A DNA stretch of 64,000 nucleotides from Blastocatellia bacterium (GTDB lineage: Bacteria; Acidobacteriota; Blastocatellia; Chloracidobacteriales; JADJPF01), in contig JANWYG010000021.1 in assembly GCA_025057015.1 (NCBI GenBank), forward strand, positions 1 to 64,000, given 5' to 3'. The translations under genes and the position numbers were made by a program. The notes beneath the pieces are model-generated. The model made no database searches. It had not been told where the DNA came from and was given only the letters and a program-made list of their open reading frames with translations. Position 1 is the first letter of the stretch; each line of letters begins with the position of its first letter. Of this stretch, positions 17,197 through 22,592 are shown in pieces.

Positions 17197-17224
17197 GGAA
17201 CCTTCCCCACACACCTGCGTGTAA
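17197..17224 (+). promoter_or_regulatory. Candidate ECF sigma autoregulated promoter
   Basis: GGAACC (17197-17202) and GTGTAA (17219-17224) with a 16-base spacer resemble the GGAAC -35 box of ECF-type promoters. They lie about 38 bases before the sigma gene start. Autoregulation is usual for such operons but here is only inferred. Confidence 0.35.
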
Positions 17225-17261: not shown

Positions 17262-17885
17262 ATGTGTTCGCTAAGTTATAGCATAGAACTTGCTCCAGCT
17301 ACGGCAGAATTGCCAGAACAACTAACAGACCACGAACTGGTAGAAGCAGTAGGTAAAGGCGATGAAACTGCTTTCGAAATACTAGTAAACAGGTACAAAG
17401 GTCAGATAGTTAATTTTATTTATCAAATGTTACAAGACTACGATCGGGCTGCAGAACTAGCTCAAGAAACCTTTCTCAAGGTATACATTTCCGCTCGCAA
17501 GTACCGTGCAGAACATAGCTTTTCGACCTATATCTATCGAATAGCATCCAATCTTGCCATAAGCGAGTTGAGGTACAGGCGCCGTAGACGATGGATCTCG
17601 TTGCTTAATCCTTTTGGAAATAGCGAAGAGGAAAAGCCGCTAGACGTGCCAGATAAAGCTCCTCTACAAGATGAAGAGCTGATAGACGATGAACGTCGAC
17701 GTGCTGTGTCAAGAGCAATAAAATCTTTGCCGGAAAAGTACCGCCTGACACTGGTTCTACGAGATGTAGAAGGATTAAGCTATGATGAAATAGCCCGCAT
17801 AACAGGGCTATCAGAAGGTACCGTCAAGTCGAGAATAAACAGAGCTAGAAACTTGCTTCGCGAAAAGCTGCAGCAATACATTTAG
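17262..17885 (+). CDS. ECF-family RNA polymerase sigma factor
   Basis: A 207-residue group 4 sigma factor. Region 2 (about 22-95) contains AFEILVNRYKGQIVNFIY, DRAAELAQETFLKVY and the -10-binding FSTYIYRIASNLAISELR. A basic and charged linker (about 100-145) precedes region 4 (SLPEKYRLTLVLRDVEGLSYDEIARITGLSEGTVKSR in segments), which binds the -35 element. It is followed 9 bp later by a zinc-finger anti-sigma gene and then a degenerate HtrA-like gene, so it probably answers an envelope signal. GGAG lies 15 bases from the ATG, which is rather far. Confidence 0.94.
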   Translation: MCSLSYSIELAPATAELPEQLTDHELVEAVGKGDETAFEILVNRYKGQIVNFIYQMLQDYDRAAELAQETFLKVYISARKYRAEHSFSTYIYRIASNLAISELRYRRRRRWISLLNPFGNSEEEKPLDVPDKAPLQDEELIDDERRRAVSRAIKSLPEKYRLTLVLRDVEGLSYDEIARITGLSEGTVKSRINRARNLLREKLQQYI

Positions 17886-17894
17886 GTAAAGGCT

Positions 17895-18503
17895 ATGAGA
17901 CAGACCTGTAAACAGATTAGAACTCAAATAGACGAAGGATGCTATAACACGGCAATAGAAACTCACTGCAGTAGCTGCATCGAGTGTGCTAGCTACCTTA
18001 GACAGATCGAAGGTGTTAAGCAGCTAATAGCTTCTTGCCGTGTAGCAGCACCAGCCGACTTCAACGCCAGACTACGTCGACAGATAGCAGCTAGAAAGGC
18101 CGAAAAGCTCCCCCTGACTTGGAACTGGAAACTGGCAATAGCAAGTCTCATAGTCCTGCTGCTCAGCATAAGTTCACACAAATACTGGTTAGAGCAACGT
18201 CAGCCGAGTACAAAAAACCAAACTACCGCTCCCAGCAGCACATGGGCTGCCGAAACTCAAACTAAATATGCTGAAACCAAAACTCAATATGAACTAAAAG
18301 AGATTACAACTCCAATAGTTACAGTTACAACCGGGCTAGAAGATCACCTGAAGCAGCTACCAAGACGTAGCCGCAAGCCGCAACAGGCACTGGATAAAAA
18401 TGCACCTATCATAATACCGGTAGTAATAGGTGCACAGCCTATACTAGACACTTCAACCTTAGGTGAAAGTGAGTTATCCTCTGTAACAGTAGTAATATTT
18501 TAG
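17895..18503 (+). CDS. Membrane anti-sigma factor with zinc-binding ASD
   Basis: A 202-residue single-pass membrane protein. The cytoplasmic N-domain has the zinc anti-sigma pattern Hx3Cx2C (HCSSCIEC, about residues 24-31). One membrane segment (about 77-95) is followed by a Thr/Gln/Lys-rich periplasmic tail of about 105 residues with no recognised domain. It lies between the ECF sigma gene (9-bp gap) and the PDZ gene (2-bp gap). It very probably sequesters the upstream sigma factor; the activating signal is unknown. Confidence 0.85.
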   Translation: MRQTCKQIRTQIDEGCYNTAIETHCSSCIECASYLRQIEGVKQLIASCRVAAPADFNARLRRQIAARKAEKLPLTWNWKLAIASLIVLLLSISSHKYWLEQRQPSTKNQTTAPSSTWAAETQTKYAETKTQYELKEITTPIVTVTTGLEDHLKQLPRRSRKPQQALDKNAPIIIPVVIGAQPILDTSTLGESELSSVTVVIF

Positions 18504-18505
18504 CT

Positions 18506-20044
18506 ATGAGGCACCTAGTCACAATCCTGCTAGCAATCGCAATCATAGTGCAAGCCCAAGCCGAAGAAAGGCCAAAAGCCAGCTCACACAATGACTACGC
18601 TTGGCTTGTTACAGTAGTACACCAGGTTAACATGAGAGCAATCTGCCGCTCGCTTAATGAGGCCGGCGTAAGGTTTAAGACTACTCCAAAAATAAGACCA
18701 ATAAACCTAACTACAGGTATAGTAATAGACCCAAAGCATGTGATTACAAGACTAGTCAACCTGGCACCAGAATCAGGCAGCGAAGGAATCGGACAAATAG
18801 AAATTCGTTCTGTATCAGGAAAGAGACACAACGCAAAGTTCGTCGGAATTGATGGACCTACTGGACTAAGCTTGCTATTTGTAGATGATTTAGCACAGCG
18901 ACCGATAGGTATAAGCGACCTATCAAATCTAAGATCTTCCAGTCCAGCCAAATATATAAACCTCTTGCTCAAAGTGCCTTTAGGCATGACCGCTGACACA
19001 GAAACCGGAGAAGCCGAGGGCAAGGTGTTCGTACAAACTGCTCATGTGTCTAACACACAAGGTGAAACATACATAGAAGTACAGTTAGATAACACCGAGA
19101 AGTTCTTACTTAATTTCAGCACTGGCGTCGTACTTGACTCTGAAGATAGACTGTTAGGCTTGCCTGTAGAGCTCAACGGTACCGTTATTAAGAGCATAAG
19201 TGCATATGAAGTCAGGCATGCTGTCGATAGAATCCTAGCAAAAGGAGGCAATGTTCCTCGAGGATGGCTAGGCATTGTCGGACAAGACACAGGCATGCTT
19301 ACAGCAGCAGAGCAGGATCACTACGCCGTCGATAAAGATGGCATACTAGTTAAACACGTAATTGAAGGTAGCCCCGCACAGACCTTCGGAGTCAAAGAAG
19401 GAGACATAATAACTGCTATCGACGGCAAACCCGTTACTAAGTTAGCAGAACTATCAACATACATAAGCAGCTTGCCCGCAGGTAAACCTGTAGAGCTGCT
19501 CTTGCGCAGAGCGGCCAAAGACGAGTCTATAACGGTAGTGCTTGGCGAACGCGGCTATAACACCATGCTACCAGACAAGATACAATTGCACGCCAAGCGG
19601 TGGTACTTAGAGGAAGAGATACAAAGAATAAACCGGCTTCTAGAATCCTACAGACTAAAGCTCGAGCAGCTGATCACTACGAGTGCCAGTGGTGACGCCA
19701 TTCACAAACTTGAAGAACATATCTCATCCCTGCTCGAGCGTCGAAGCGACCTTCTACGCAAACAACGCTCTCTTAAGTATCCTAGGAAACCATTCATAGT
19801 GCCGCTAGAAAAAGGGATTAGGATTAACGAAACAGGCACGTACTTGGAAGTCTTCAGTCAAGAACTTAGACCAGAAGACGTCTTAATATGGATAGATGAT
19901 CACCGAATAGTCAACCAGCAACAACTTAGACAGATAGTAGAATCCTTGTACAAGCAAGGGCGGCTTACGGCAAAGATTAAGATCCGCCGCAACGGACAAA
20001 TCATTCCCCTAACGGTGAATTTAAAGGAAAAACAAGTTGACTGA
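18506..20044 (+). CDS. Degenerate HtrA-like periplasmic protein with two PDZ-type domains
   Basis: A 512-residue exported protein. A signal peptide (1-19) is followed by a trypsin-like fold (about 62-242), a PDZ domain (about 252-348, EGSPAQTFGVKEGDIITAIDGKPV), a charged coiled coil (about 366-424) and a second PDZ-like unit (about 430-506). In the protease domain the HtrA histidine site reads ITRLVNL (His to Val84), the aspartate site reads GPTGLSLL, and GNSGGP is replaced by NFSTGVV. Ser205 remains but the triad is lost. It is cotranscribed with the sigma and anti-sigma genes, so it may sense or scaffold envelope stress instead of cutting. Confidence 0.75.
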   Translation: MRHLVTILLAIAIIVQAQAEERPKASSHNDYAWLVTVVHQVNMRAICRSLNEAGVRFKTTPKIRPINLTTGIVIDPKHVITRLVNLAPESGSEGIGQIEIRSVSGKRHNAKFVGIDGPTGLSLLFVDDLAQRPIGISDLSNLRSSSPAKYINLLLKVPLGMTADTETGEAEGKVFVQTAHVSNTQGETYIEVQLDNTEKFLLNFSTGVVLDSEDRLLGLPVELNGTVIKSISAYEVRHAVDRILAKGGNVPRGWLGIVGQDTGMLTAAEQDHYAVDKDGILVKHVIEGSPAQTFGVKEGDIITAIDGKPVTKLAELSTYISSLPAGKPVELLLRRAAKDESITVVLGERGYNTMLPDKIQLHAKRWYLEEEIQRINRLLESYRLKLEQLITTSASGDAIHKLEEHISSLLERRSDLLRKQRSLKYPRKPFIVPLEKGIRINETGTYLEVFSQELRPEDVLIWIDDHRIVNQQQLRQIVESLYKQGRLTAKIKIRRNGQIIPLTVNLKEKQVD

Positions 20045-20077: not shown

Positions 20078-20151
20078 TGGGAGGTCGTCCAATGGTAGGA
20101 CACCAGACTCTGGATCTGGCTATCGGGGTTCGAGTCCCTGCCTCCCAGCCA
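20078..20151 (+). tRNA. tRNA-Gln (CTG)
   Basis: A 7-bp acceptor stem TGGGAGG / CCTCCCA starts with the U1-A72 pair typical of tRNA-Gln. The anticodon stem CCAGA / TCTGG encloses the loop ctCTGga, giving anticodon CUG. A GGTTCGAGT T-loop is present. The discriminator is G and CCA is encoded (20149-20151). It stands alone, after the PDZ gene. Confidence 0.95.
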
Positions 20152-20208: not shown

Positions 20209-21444
20209 TCAGAGGTAGTTTTCAAGGAAGCTTGCTACCTCAAGTGCGCTCTGTGGCCTATTTTCAGGCGACTTTTCTAGCATGCGCATCACAAACTCAG
20301 AGAGCTGCTCATCAAGATTGCACAAATACTTCAAGTGTACAGGTGTCTTCTGAATATGCTGATTAATTATCTCATAAGCAGTGCCTTCAAACGGTGGTAT
20401 ACCAGTCAACATCTCATACAATACTACGCCTAACGAGTAGATATCTGCTCGACCGTCTATGTCATAACCCATGGCCTGCTCAGGAGAAAGATAAAGTGGA
20501 GTTCCCATCATCGACTGGCTGTCAGTAAGCCTCGTCAGCAGAGGGTCCTGATTAAGCAAAGCAATCCCAAAATCAAGGATTTTTACTTTCCCTTCCTCGC
20601 ATAGAAAGATATTACTTGGCTTTAGATCACGATGGACAATCGAGTGGCGATGCAGCTCGTCTATAGCCAAGCAAACCTCGCGAGATATACTAATAGCTTG
20701 CCGGAAATTGATATGCGACTTCTCAGCTAGCTCCCTGTCAAGAGAATGCCCCTTCAGTAACTCCATAGAGAGATACGCTTGCCCAGTAGCCAGCAGTCCG
20801 TACTCATAAGTTTCTACTATGTTTGGATGCCTTACTTTTATAGCCGCTGCAGCTTCGCGGGCAAAACGTCTGACGGCTACTTCATCAGCCACATACTCGG
20901 CTCGCAACACTTTCAAAGCTACCAACTTTTCAGTCTTGAGATCTTCTGCCGAATAGACTATGCCCATGCCGCCAAAACCGAGCGTCTCGACTATCCTGTA
21001 TCTATCATTTATAATGTCCGAGCCAACTGCTGGATTGCTAGGCGGTGTCTTATGCTTGAATGTTACTGGCTCAAGACGCTCCAGCAGCCGCTGAGCACGA
21101 ATCTTTACCTCTCTGACATTGAAGGGCTTGCTCCAATAATCCTCAACACCACTCTCAAGTAATGCAGCCCGTACTTCTGCATCATCCGTAGCTGTAAGAA
21201 AAACAAAAGGAATATGGCGAGTATGCGGGGATTCTTTCAACTGAAGGAAAAGACCCAGCCCATCAAGTTCAGGCATGTTCCAGTCAGAAATGATAATGCT
21301 AGGCCTTGCATCGACTATGATAGGTAAGGCTTCCTGGCCATTTTGAGCCGTCAAAACTTCACAATCGAGGCTCTTAAATGTAGCTTTCAAAATGGCCAAC
21401 ACTTGAGGGTCGTCATCTATTATCAAAATCGAGCGCTTAGACAA
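20209..21444 (-). CDS. Response regulator receiver fused to Ser/Thr protein kinase
   Basis: A 411-residue cytoplasmic fusion. The receiver domain (1-125) has the acidic pocket IIDDDP, phospho-acceptor Asp54 in SDWNMPELDG, and Lys106 in SKPF. A Hanks-type kinase (about 148-411) has the glycine loop GFGGMG, ATP lysine 178, HRDLKPSN (271-278) and DFG (291-293), followed by an SPEQ substrate site. A two-component signal could therefore control Ser/Thr phosphorylation. The start is TTG 21444, with no in-frame ATG and a distant AGGAG. No cognate histidine kinase is nearby; DUF1232 and an unknown gene lie just upstream. Confidence 0.9.
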   Translation of the reverse strand: MSKRSILIIDDDPQVLAILKATFKSLDCEVLTAQNGQEALPIIVDARPSIIISDWNMPELDGLGLFLQLKESPHTRHIPFVFLTATDDAEVRAALLESGVEDYWSKPFNVREVKIRAQRLLERLEPVTFKHKTPPSNPAVGSDIINDRYRIVETLGFGGMGIVYSAEDLKTEKLVALKVLRAEYVADEVAVRRFAREAAAAIKVRHPNIVETYEYGLLATGQAYLSMELLKGHSLDRELAEKSHINFRQAISISREVCLAIDELHRHSIVHRDLKPSNIFLCEEGKVKILDFGIALLNQDPLLTRLTDSQSMMGTPLYLSPEQAMGYDIDGRADIYSLGVVLYEMLTGIPPFEGTAYEIINQHIQKTPVHLKYLCNLDEQLSEFVMRMLEKSPENRPQSALEVASFLENYL

Positions 21445-21947: not shown

Positions 21948-22592
21948 CTATGGTATATCAGAAATATCCGTTATTTCATCCGGCTGTATATCTTCAGGGC
22001 TTTCTGACCAATCAGTATCTGTATCCGCTGTCTCTGCCTCCACTACATCCTCAAGCTGATTGAGCTCCATCTCCGTAGGCTCGTCGGAAATAAAGTCAGC
22101 CTTTGCCACTCTATCCCAACGTACAACTGGCTTCGATACTTGCGAGATCTTAGGCAAAAGCTCCTTTTTAGCTAAGAGGTATTTCGAAAAGTCAGCCAGC
22201 ATCTTTATGCTTTTATCGACATCCGAGATCCTCTCTAACAACCGCATGAAGTAAGTCACACAACTCTTTGCAACTTTGTCCTGAGCCTCAGAAAGCAGAT
22301 ACTTCTTAATTATAGCAAAACTGTCGCCAGCCAAAATAGCGTCACGTACTGACGAGATGGAATTAAGTAGCGTGTAGACTTGCGCTAAGCGCAAGTCAGA
22401 CTCCTGCCCTTGCTCGGAAAATATCCCCGCAAATAGCCCCCTAAACATCTCTTGACCATAGTCAGAATCTATTTGCACCAAGTCTATCTCAGCATCCGAT
22501 TCAGGCAGATCCATCTCTAAAACGCAGACCTGCTGTGAACCTAGCACAACCTCTATTTCATAACTTCCAGCTAAGCTCTTCTTATTAGACAA
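21948..22592 (-). CDS. Hypothetical acidic protein
   Basis: A 214-residue soluble protein that I do not recognise. The N-terminal part (1-55) looks like beta strands, the middle (about 60-150) is helical with heptad-like spacing (SCVTYFMRLLERISDVDKS), and the last 55 residues are very acidic and probably disordered. It has no signal peptide or membrane helix. TTG at 22592 is the likely start because AAAGGAG lies 5 bases upstream. It heads a probable operon with a DUF1232 gene and a receiver-kinase gene. Confidence 0.6.
   Translation of the reverse strand: MSNKKSLAGSYEIEVVLGSQQVCVLEMDLPESDAEIDLVQIDSDYGQEMFRGLFAGIFSEQGQESDLRLAQVYTLLNSISSVRDAILAGDSFAIIKKYLLSEAQDKVAKSCVTYFMRLLERISDVDKSIKMLADFSKYLLAKKELLPKISQVSKPVVRWDRVAKADFISDEPTEMELNQLEDVVEAETADTDTDWSESPEDIQPDEITDISDIP

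Follow-up and report, generated by a model that had tools for sequence, protein, structure and literature searches.

Our analyses suggest that bacteria of the class Blastocatellia carry a variant of the RpoE-type module in which the HtrA-family protein has lost its catalytic residues and acts as a partner of the anti-sigma factor, its first PDZ domain (PDZ1) docking onto the tail of that factor at its free C-terminus. We put the probability of this reading, docking with a regulatory and non-catalytic role, at roughly 0.6. What appears to be new, as far as sequences can tell, is the pairing of a hydrophobic anti-sigma end with PDZ1 of a pseudo-HtrA; the literature that we searched, which takes in neither journals behind a subscription nor the large classification of ECF factors, holds no earlier description of a pseudo-HtrA or PDZ partner of an anti-sigma factor. 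We place the system with the RpoE-type modules and not with the DegS-type site-1 protease modules because the HtrA partner in the window, the stretch of 64,000 nucleotides from a Blastocatellia contig (JANWYG010000021.1) that we analyzed, has no catalytic triad.

In the window, the three genes form an operon on the plus strand, consisting of an RpoE/SigW-like ECF sigma factor (17262–17885, 207 aa), a zinc-type (ZAS) membrane anti-sigma factor (17895–18503, 202 aa) and an HtrA-like protein with two PDZ domains (18506–20044, 512 aa), the genes being 9 and 2 bp apart; a check of the open reading frames bore out the positions, strand, order and spacing claimed in an earlier note on this DNA. These three are the only genes of the operon, which thus has none for RseB. 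Protectors of the RseB/MucB type bind the anti-sigma factor with an RseB-like fold; the third protein has an HtrA fold, and by analogy it may still serve as a protector. The first protein is indeed an ECF sigma factor, as the earlier note had it: it contains sigma-70 regions 2 and 4 only, with matches in Pfam (Sigma70_r2 at 2e-16 and r4_2 at 2e-19) and NCBIfam (TIGR02937 at 115 bits, cut-off 42.9). Upstream of its gene lies a putative autoregulatory ECF promoter, GGAAC-N16-CGTGT (17197–17222, plus strand), and 67 of 105 loci have the more general pattern GGAAC-N15-18-CGT ahead of their sigma gene, the mean for shuffled sequences being 2.9. A conserved promoter element at this position points to autoregulation, and the sequences thus suggest that the sigma factor transcribes its own operon. 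A genome-wide search with the strict pattern GGAAC-Y-N15-CGTGW did not extend the regulon past the promoter of the operon itself: we call none since the pattern has three sites against four for the reversed-pattern controls, and of the other two sites one falls inside a gene, the second in the final part of an lpxK-like gene. A simple scan for sigma-70 promoters and terminators gave counts not far above those of shuffled sequence.

The second protein matches the NCBIfam anti-sigma families weakly, and its identification as a zinc-type anti-sigma factor is confirmed by other features. It carries the ZAS zinc motif HCSSCIEC (17964–17987, plus strand), an Hx3Cx2C arrangement whose H24, C28 and C31 are invariant in the family alignment; it has a single predicted transmembrane segment at residues 74–92 (18114–18170, plus strand; hydropathy 1.72 over 19 residues); and its gene adjoins the ECF gene here and in relatives. 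The predicted extracytoplasmic tail includes a conserved IGAQ motif (18426–18437, plus strand) with G179 invariant in the alignment, followed by a linker variable in both length and sequence. The tail ends in VTVVIF, and the last four residues, VVIF (18489–18500, plus strand), are the putative ligand of PDZ1.

The third protein begins with a signal peptide, MRHLVTILLAIAIIVQAQA (18506–18562, plus strand), recognized from the sequence and an N-terminal hydrophobic peak. The rest of it, all on the plus strand, is made up of a degenerate trypsin-like domain (18695–19210), PDZ1 (19259–19540; Pfam PDZ_2, 1.5e-17), a coiled coil (19568–19771) that the structural model renders as two long helices at residues 355–392 and 396–422, and a second domain, PDZ2 (19817–20029), with PDZ-like secondary structure in the model; two PDZ-like domains and a coiled coil had been claimed before, and the claim stands. 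PDZ1 opens with an HtrA-type carboxylate-binding loop, RGWLGI (19259–19276, plus strand), which almost every ortholog has when its gene is complete. Pfam Trypsin_2 does not match the trypsin-like region of the window protein, and we assign the HtrA fold from model matches and from relatives. The AlphaFold2 model (mean pLDDT 74.6; 15 sequences) resembles the structures of DegP, DegQ, DegS and AlgW with Z of about 19–22; 23 of the 26 proteins in the family alignment match Trypsin_2. A phmmer search against solved structures also returned DegP, DegQ, AlgW and DegS, over residues 68–357.

By its fold, then, a trypsin-like domain followed by PDZ, the protein belongs to the HtrA/Deg family; judged by its catalytic residues it is not one of the proteases of that family, since all three residues of the His-Asp-Ser triad are absent. 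The triad was read by alignment with three of the genome's own active HtrAs, and as their H, D and S line up there as they should, the loss is not an artefact of the alignment. A serine that falls into the Ser column in one alignment sits in NFSTG and not in a GxSGG motif. The earlier description of an HtrA-like protein without the catalytic His and Asp is therefore correct by alignment but incomplete, the catalytic Ser being lost too. The triad is gone in all 62 Blastocatellia partners tested, the window included, and the Asp column holds Gly in 61 of them. Just before the trypsin-like domain, the alignment shows an invariant histidine, H39, in the motif W-L-V-T-V-x-H (18602–18622 in the window and in relatives); we know of nothing in the HtrA family that would explain it.

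Relatives were found by scanning public genomes with an alignment of the sigma factor, a search with the PDZ protein alone giving nothing. The sigma relatives belong to the Blastocatellia (Acidobacteriota), among them Pyrinomonas methylaliphatogenes and a Chloracidobacterium; an ortholog is present in 144 of the 162 genomes of the class and in 97 of the 101 good ones, in single copy in all but one. The anti-sigma gene follows wherever the contig extends far enough, and the order of the trio is identical in all Blastocatellia read except those with fused genes, which rules out a chance co-occurrence. The gene order and triad loss that the earlier note had proposed looking for in relatives are thus both found across the class. 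Two architectures can be told apart among 103 scored genomes. In 67, the anti-sigma factor and the pseudo-HtrA are encoded by separate genes (type A); in the other 36 (type B), the anti-sigma factor, a transmembrane segment and a PDZ domain form one open reading frame of about 230–390 aa and there is no separate pseudo-HtrA. Pfam supports the PDZ domain of the clearer fusions (1.4e-9 in L196, 7e-7 in L229), while three of the 36 (L216, L228 and L251) fell below the first profile cut-off and were assigned by a weaker match to the PDZ2 profile. The model of one fusion has N-terminal helices, a transmembrane helix, a disordered linker of ~110 residues and then a PDZ domain, which is modelled with pLDDT of about 90 and matches the PDZ domains of HtrA proteins. 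The sigma tree gives the fusion two origins, one in a clade of 35 genomes and the other in L215, which stands apart. PDZ1 is missing from the 36 fusions and from two type-A genomes, L238 and L239, at least one of them a Pyrinomonas; with separate profiles for PDZ1 and PDZ2, the surviving domain is PDZ2-like in all 38.

The main evidence for docking is that PDZ1 and the hydrophobic C-terminus are kept or lost together, the pattern expected of a docking pair. In all 65 PDZ1-bearing Blastocatellia, the anti-sigma factor has a large hydrophobic residue at its end (F in 27, W in 26, L in 8, Y in 3 and I in 1), and although it has changed at least eight times on the tree among these genomes, it has never changed to a non-hydrophobic residue. 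Six of the 65 are a less than full test, as their contigs stop inside the partner gene, in most cases ahead of PDZ1. Of the 38 genomes without PDZ1, 37 have lost the hydrophobic end: L238 and L239, the two whose pseudo-HtrA lost the domain, are also the two type-A genomes whose anti-sigma factor lacks such an end, and all but one of the fusions end in R, P, K, N, Q, E or D. A carboxylate loop in PDZ1 and a free hydrophobic end on the anti-sigma factor are, by sequence, the two sides of a PDZ–ligand pair, and the PDZ domains of AlgW and DegS are known to bind WVF and YxF C-termini (PMC8545111). A need for overlapping genes cannot account for the conserved last codon, since the spacing from the anti-sigma gene to the next varies. 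From this covariation, we think it quite probable that PDZ1 of the pseudo-HtrA binds the anti-sigma C-terminus.

Several observations count against docking. One fusion, L201, ends in F; the tails do not have the aromatic residue at position −2 that DegS and AlgW favour; and within Blastocatellia the PDZ1 and C-terminus events amount to three independent ones. On a tree of 149 sigma factors, both traits change seven times, three of the pairs falling on well-supported branches, and because there are only three such pairs, a sign test on their co-change is not significant. Wherever a genome on that tree has a partner with PDZ1, its anti-sigma end is hydrophobic. A raw Fisher test disregards the kinship of the genomes, and we do not count its value as evidence.

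The same three-gene order is found outside the class, in Zixibacteria, Aminicenantes and one unplaced bacterium, with anti-sigma factors that end in F or Y. In Zixibacteria and Aminicenantes, all 43 anti-sigma factors beside a profile-verified HtrA-like gene have such an end (12 F and 31 Y), whereas among 43 control transmembrane anti-sigma factors, which belong to related sigmas and have no HtrA gene beside them, none ends in an aromatic residue and one in Leu, the others ending in residues such as R, K, G, E or N. Sixteen partners were read outside the class: two have the full triad, nine have kept the Ser (one of them also the His) and five have none of the three residues, and the anti-sigma factor ends in F or Y beside all 16, whether the triad is intact or not. 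With the arrangement kept across the class and in other phyla, binding, not cutting, seems to be what matters. The earlier note had gone further and proposed that the protein senses misfolded proteins by binding and hands the signal to the anti-sigma factor without cutting. Part of this is upheld: the gene order is conserved, the triad is lost, and the hydrophobic end that accompanies PDZ1, the joint loss of the two, and the anti-sigma–PDZ fusions point to binding as the function that was kept. The more tentative parts are the sensing of misfolded proteins and a signal passed on free of proteolysis, for the genome has other HtrAs and an RseP-like S2P.

The intact His-Asp-Ser partners are both from Zixibacteria (L328:1956-3257 and L329:1984-3279), beside anti-sigma factors that end in F, so the HtrA of this pairing may in the past have been an active protease. 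In Aminicenantes (L297–L316), the anti-sigma factor is about 130 aa long, has no zinc motif and ends in Tyr, and is followed by a pseudo-HtrA. The operon of Zixibacteria continues into AsmA/TamB-like genes, and four of the six genomes checked have an Omp85 gene some 7 kb farther downstream; these neighbours hint at outer-membrane assembly.

We picture the system as an RpoE-RseA-like envelope-stress switch in which the catalytically dead HtrA would partner the anti-sigma factor on the extracytoplasmic side. In the cytoplasm, the ZAS domain would hold the sigma factor, as in other members of its family, and the single transmembrane segment would place a flexible tail in the periplasm, with the IGAQ strand, the variable linker and the free hydrophobic C-terminus. 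Docked through PDZ1, the pseudo-HtrA would cap or scaffold this tail, leaving PDZ2, and PDZ1 once vacated, free to meet the C-termini of outer-membrane proteins (OMPs). Stress ligands may then alter the complex such that the tail becomes exposed to a true site-1 protease and subsequently to an RseP-like S2P, or the sigma factor is released directly; judging from the promoter, the released sigma would transcribe its own operon. The genome encodes an RseP-like S2P and two Omp85 proteins, and 20 of its 21 OMPs end in F like the anti-sigma factor. That misfolded OMPs compete the pseudo-HtrA off the tail is a tentative suggestion, with the odds somewhat against it. A stricter mimicry, in which the tail residue follows that of the OMPs, was unsupported: Omp85 proteins mostly end in F whatever the anti-sigma end, including W, Y and L, and this independence across lineages weakens the idea. 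The fusions speak for a tether: with PDZ2 attached covalently, PDZ1 and the C-terminal residue become dispensable.

The main rival holds that the pseudo-HtrA is a positive cofactor, forming mixed assemblies with an active HtrA in the same cell and delivering the anti-sigma factor to it, much as MamO promotes MamE-dependent proteolysis. There is a precedent, as MamO shows that a pseudo-HtrA can serve as cofactor of an active one, this triad-degenerate protein being needed for MamE-dependent proteolysis (PMC4794232), and the genome could supply the protease, holding eight other Trypsin_2 proteins of which at least three have intact H, D and S. Docking of PDZ1 on the anti-sigma C-terminus fits an adaptor equally well and, were the rival true, the loss of the triad would not mean a loss of proteolysis in the pathway. 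Against this, the Blastocatellia operon holds no active HtrA, and the fusions do without the whole trypsin-like part, so the scaffold is dispensable there. We consider delivery to an active HtrA rather unlikely and favour capping of the tail until OMP ends displace it.

The reader of the hydrophobic end could also be some other protein, for instance RseP through its PDZ domains, an active HtrA or Tsp, or BAM, with the pseudo-HtrA next door only incidentally. For RseP, it has been suggested that the PDZ binds the C-terminus newly exposed when DegS cuts RseA (PMC10202637), and three Zixibacteria (L325, L327 and L332) keep the Tyr end with no HtrA gene adjacent, which counts against docking. Such a reader would not explain why the loss of the end coincides exactly with that of PDZ1, both in Pyrinomonas and at the two origins of the fusion, nor why related anti-sigma factors without an HtrA neighbour have no such end, and we hold the idea to be improbable. 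In these three Zixibacteria, a CMD gene comes directly after the anti-sigma gene, with a TamB-family gene next in L325. Still far less probable is a conventional DegS-like module in which the HtrA partner cleaves the anti-sigma factor: the intact triads of L328 and L329 beside the same aromatic end speak for it, but all three residues are gone in every Blastocatellia partner tested, and 14 of the 16 partners read in other phyla are without at least one of them. Returning to a pseudo-HtrA docked on the tail, a broader proposal would be that in several phyla the pseudoprotease has taken over from DegS the sensing in an RpoE-like response, with PDZ1 gripping an OMP-like end of the anti-sigma factor, misfolded OMP ends competing for PDZ1, the freed tail turning the sigma factor on and, in one lineage, a covalent fusion in place of the tether; we regard this as possible, though not the likelier outcome.

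The pieces of the system have known counterparts. The AlgU-MucA-MucB-MucD operon of Pseudomonas aeruginosa combines a sigma and anti-sigma pair with an HtrA gene, and the SigE-RseA-HtrA genes of Mycobacterium tuberculosis (Rv1221–Rv1223) have the same order as those of the window, with sigma factor, ZAS anti-sigma and HtrA. The M. tuberculosis RseA is, however, cytoplasmic and Rv1223 an active protease, both unlike the window system. A further difference is the large cytoplasmic domain of Rv1223 (PMC3062566). With the RpoE-RseA-RseB/DegS/RseP system of Escherichia coli, the window has in common an ECF sigma factor, a single-pass anti-sigma factor, a PDZ protein of the HtrA family and an S2P in the genome. 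It differs in that the HtrA member is encoded in the same operon, exported by a signal peptide, and has two PDZ domains and no triad, unlike DegS, and in that the hydrophobic C-terminal residue sits on the anti-sigma factor and RseB is absent from the operon. AlgW of P. aeruginosa resembles the window protein in having a PDZ that reads C-termini, WVF-type ones in the case of AlgW (PMC8545111) and, putatively, the anti-sigma end in ours. Unlike our pseudo-HtrA, AlgW and MucD are active proteases and the activating C-termini are on OMPs or MucE, not on the anti-sigma factor. MamO of magnetotactic bacteria likewise has an HtrA fold, a degenerate triad and a non-catalytic role (PMC4794232), but it binds metals in magnetosomes and has no link to sigma control. 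If our reading is true, the PDZ reading of C-termini in a sigma-E-type pathway needs no attached protease, and a similar sensor logic can run by docking and displacement. The one terminal residue of the anti-sigma factor provides a simple, testable handle, and the active (L328 and L329 of Zixibacteria), pseudo and fused relatives form a natural series for comparing the forms of one system. To our knowledge, envelope-stress control has scarcely been studied in the Acidobacteriota.

Directly 3′ of the operon lies a gene for tRNA-Gln (CTG; 20078–20151, plus strand). Farther on, at 21948–22592 on the minus strand, a 214-aa protein without any Pfam family above the cut-off adjoins a DUF1232 protein and a receiver-kinase gene; the latter (20209–21444, minus strand) encodes a response-regulator receiver domain and a Ser/Thr protein kinase domain fused in one protein.
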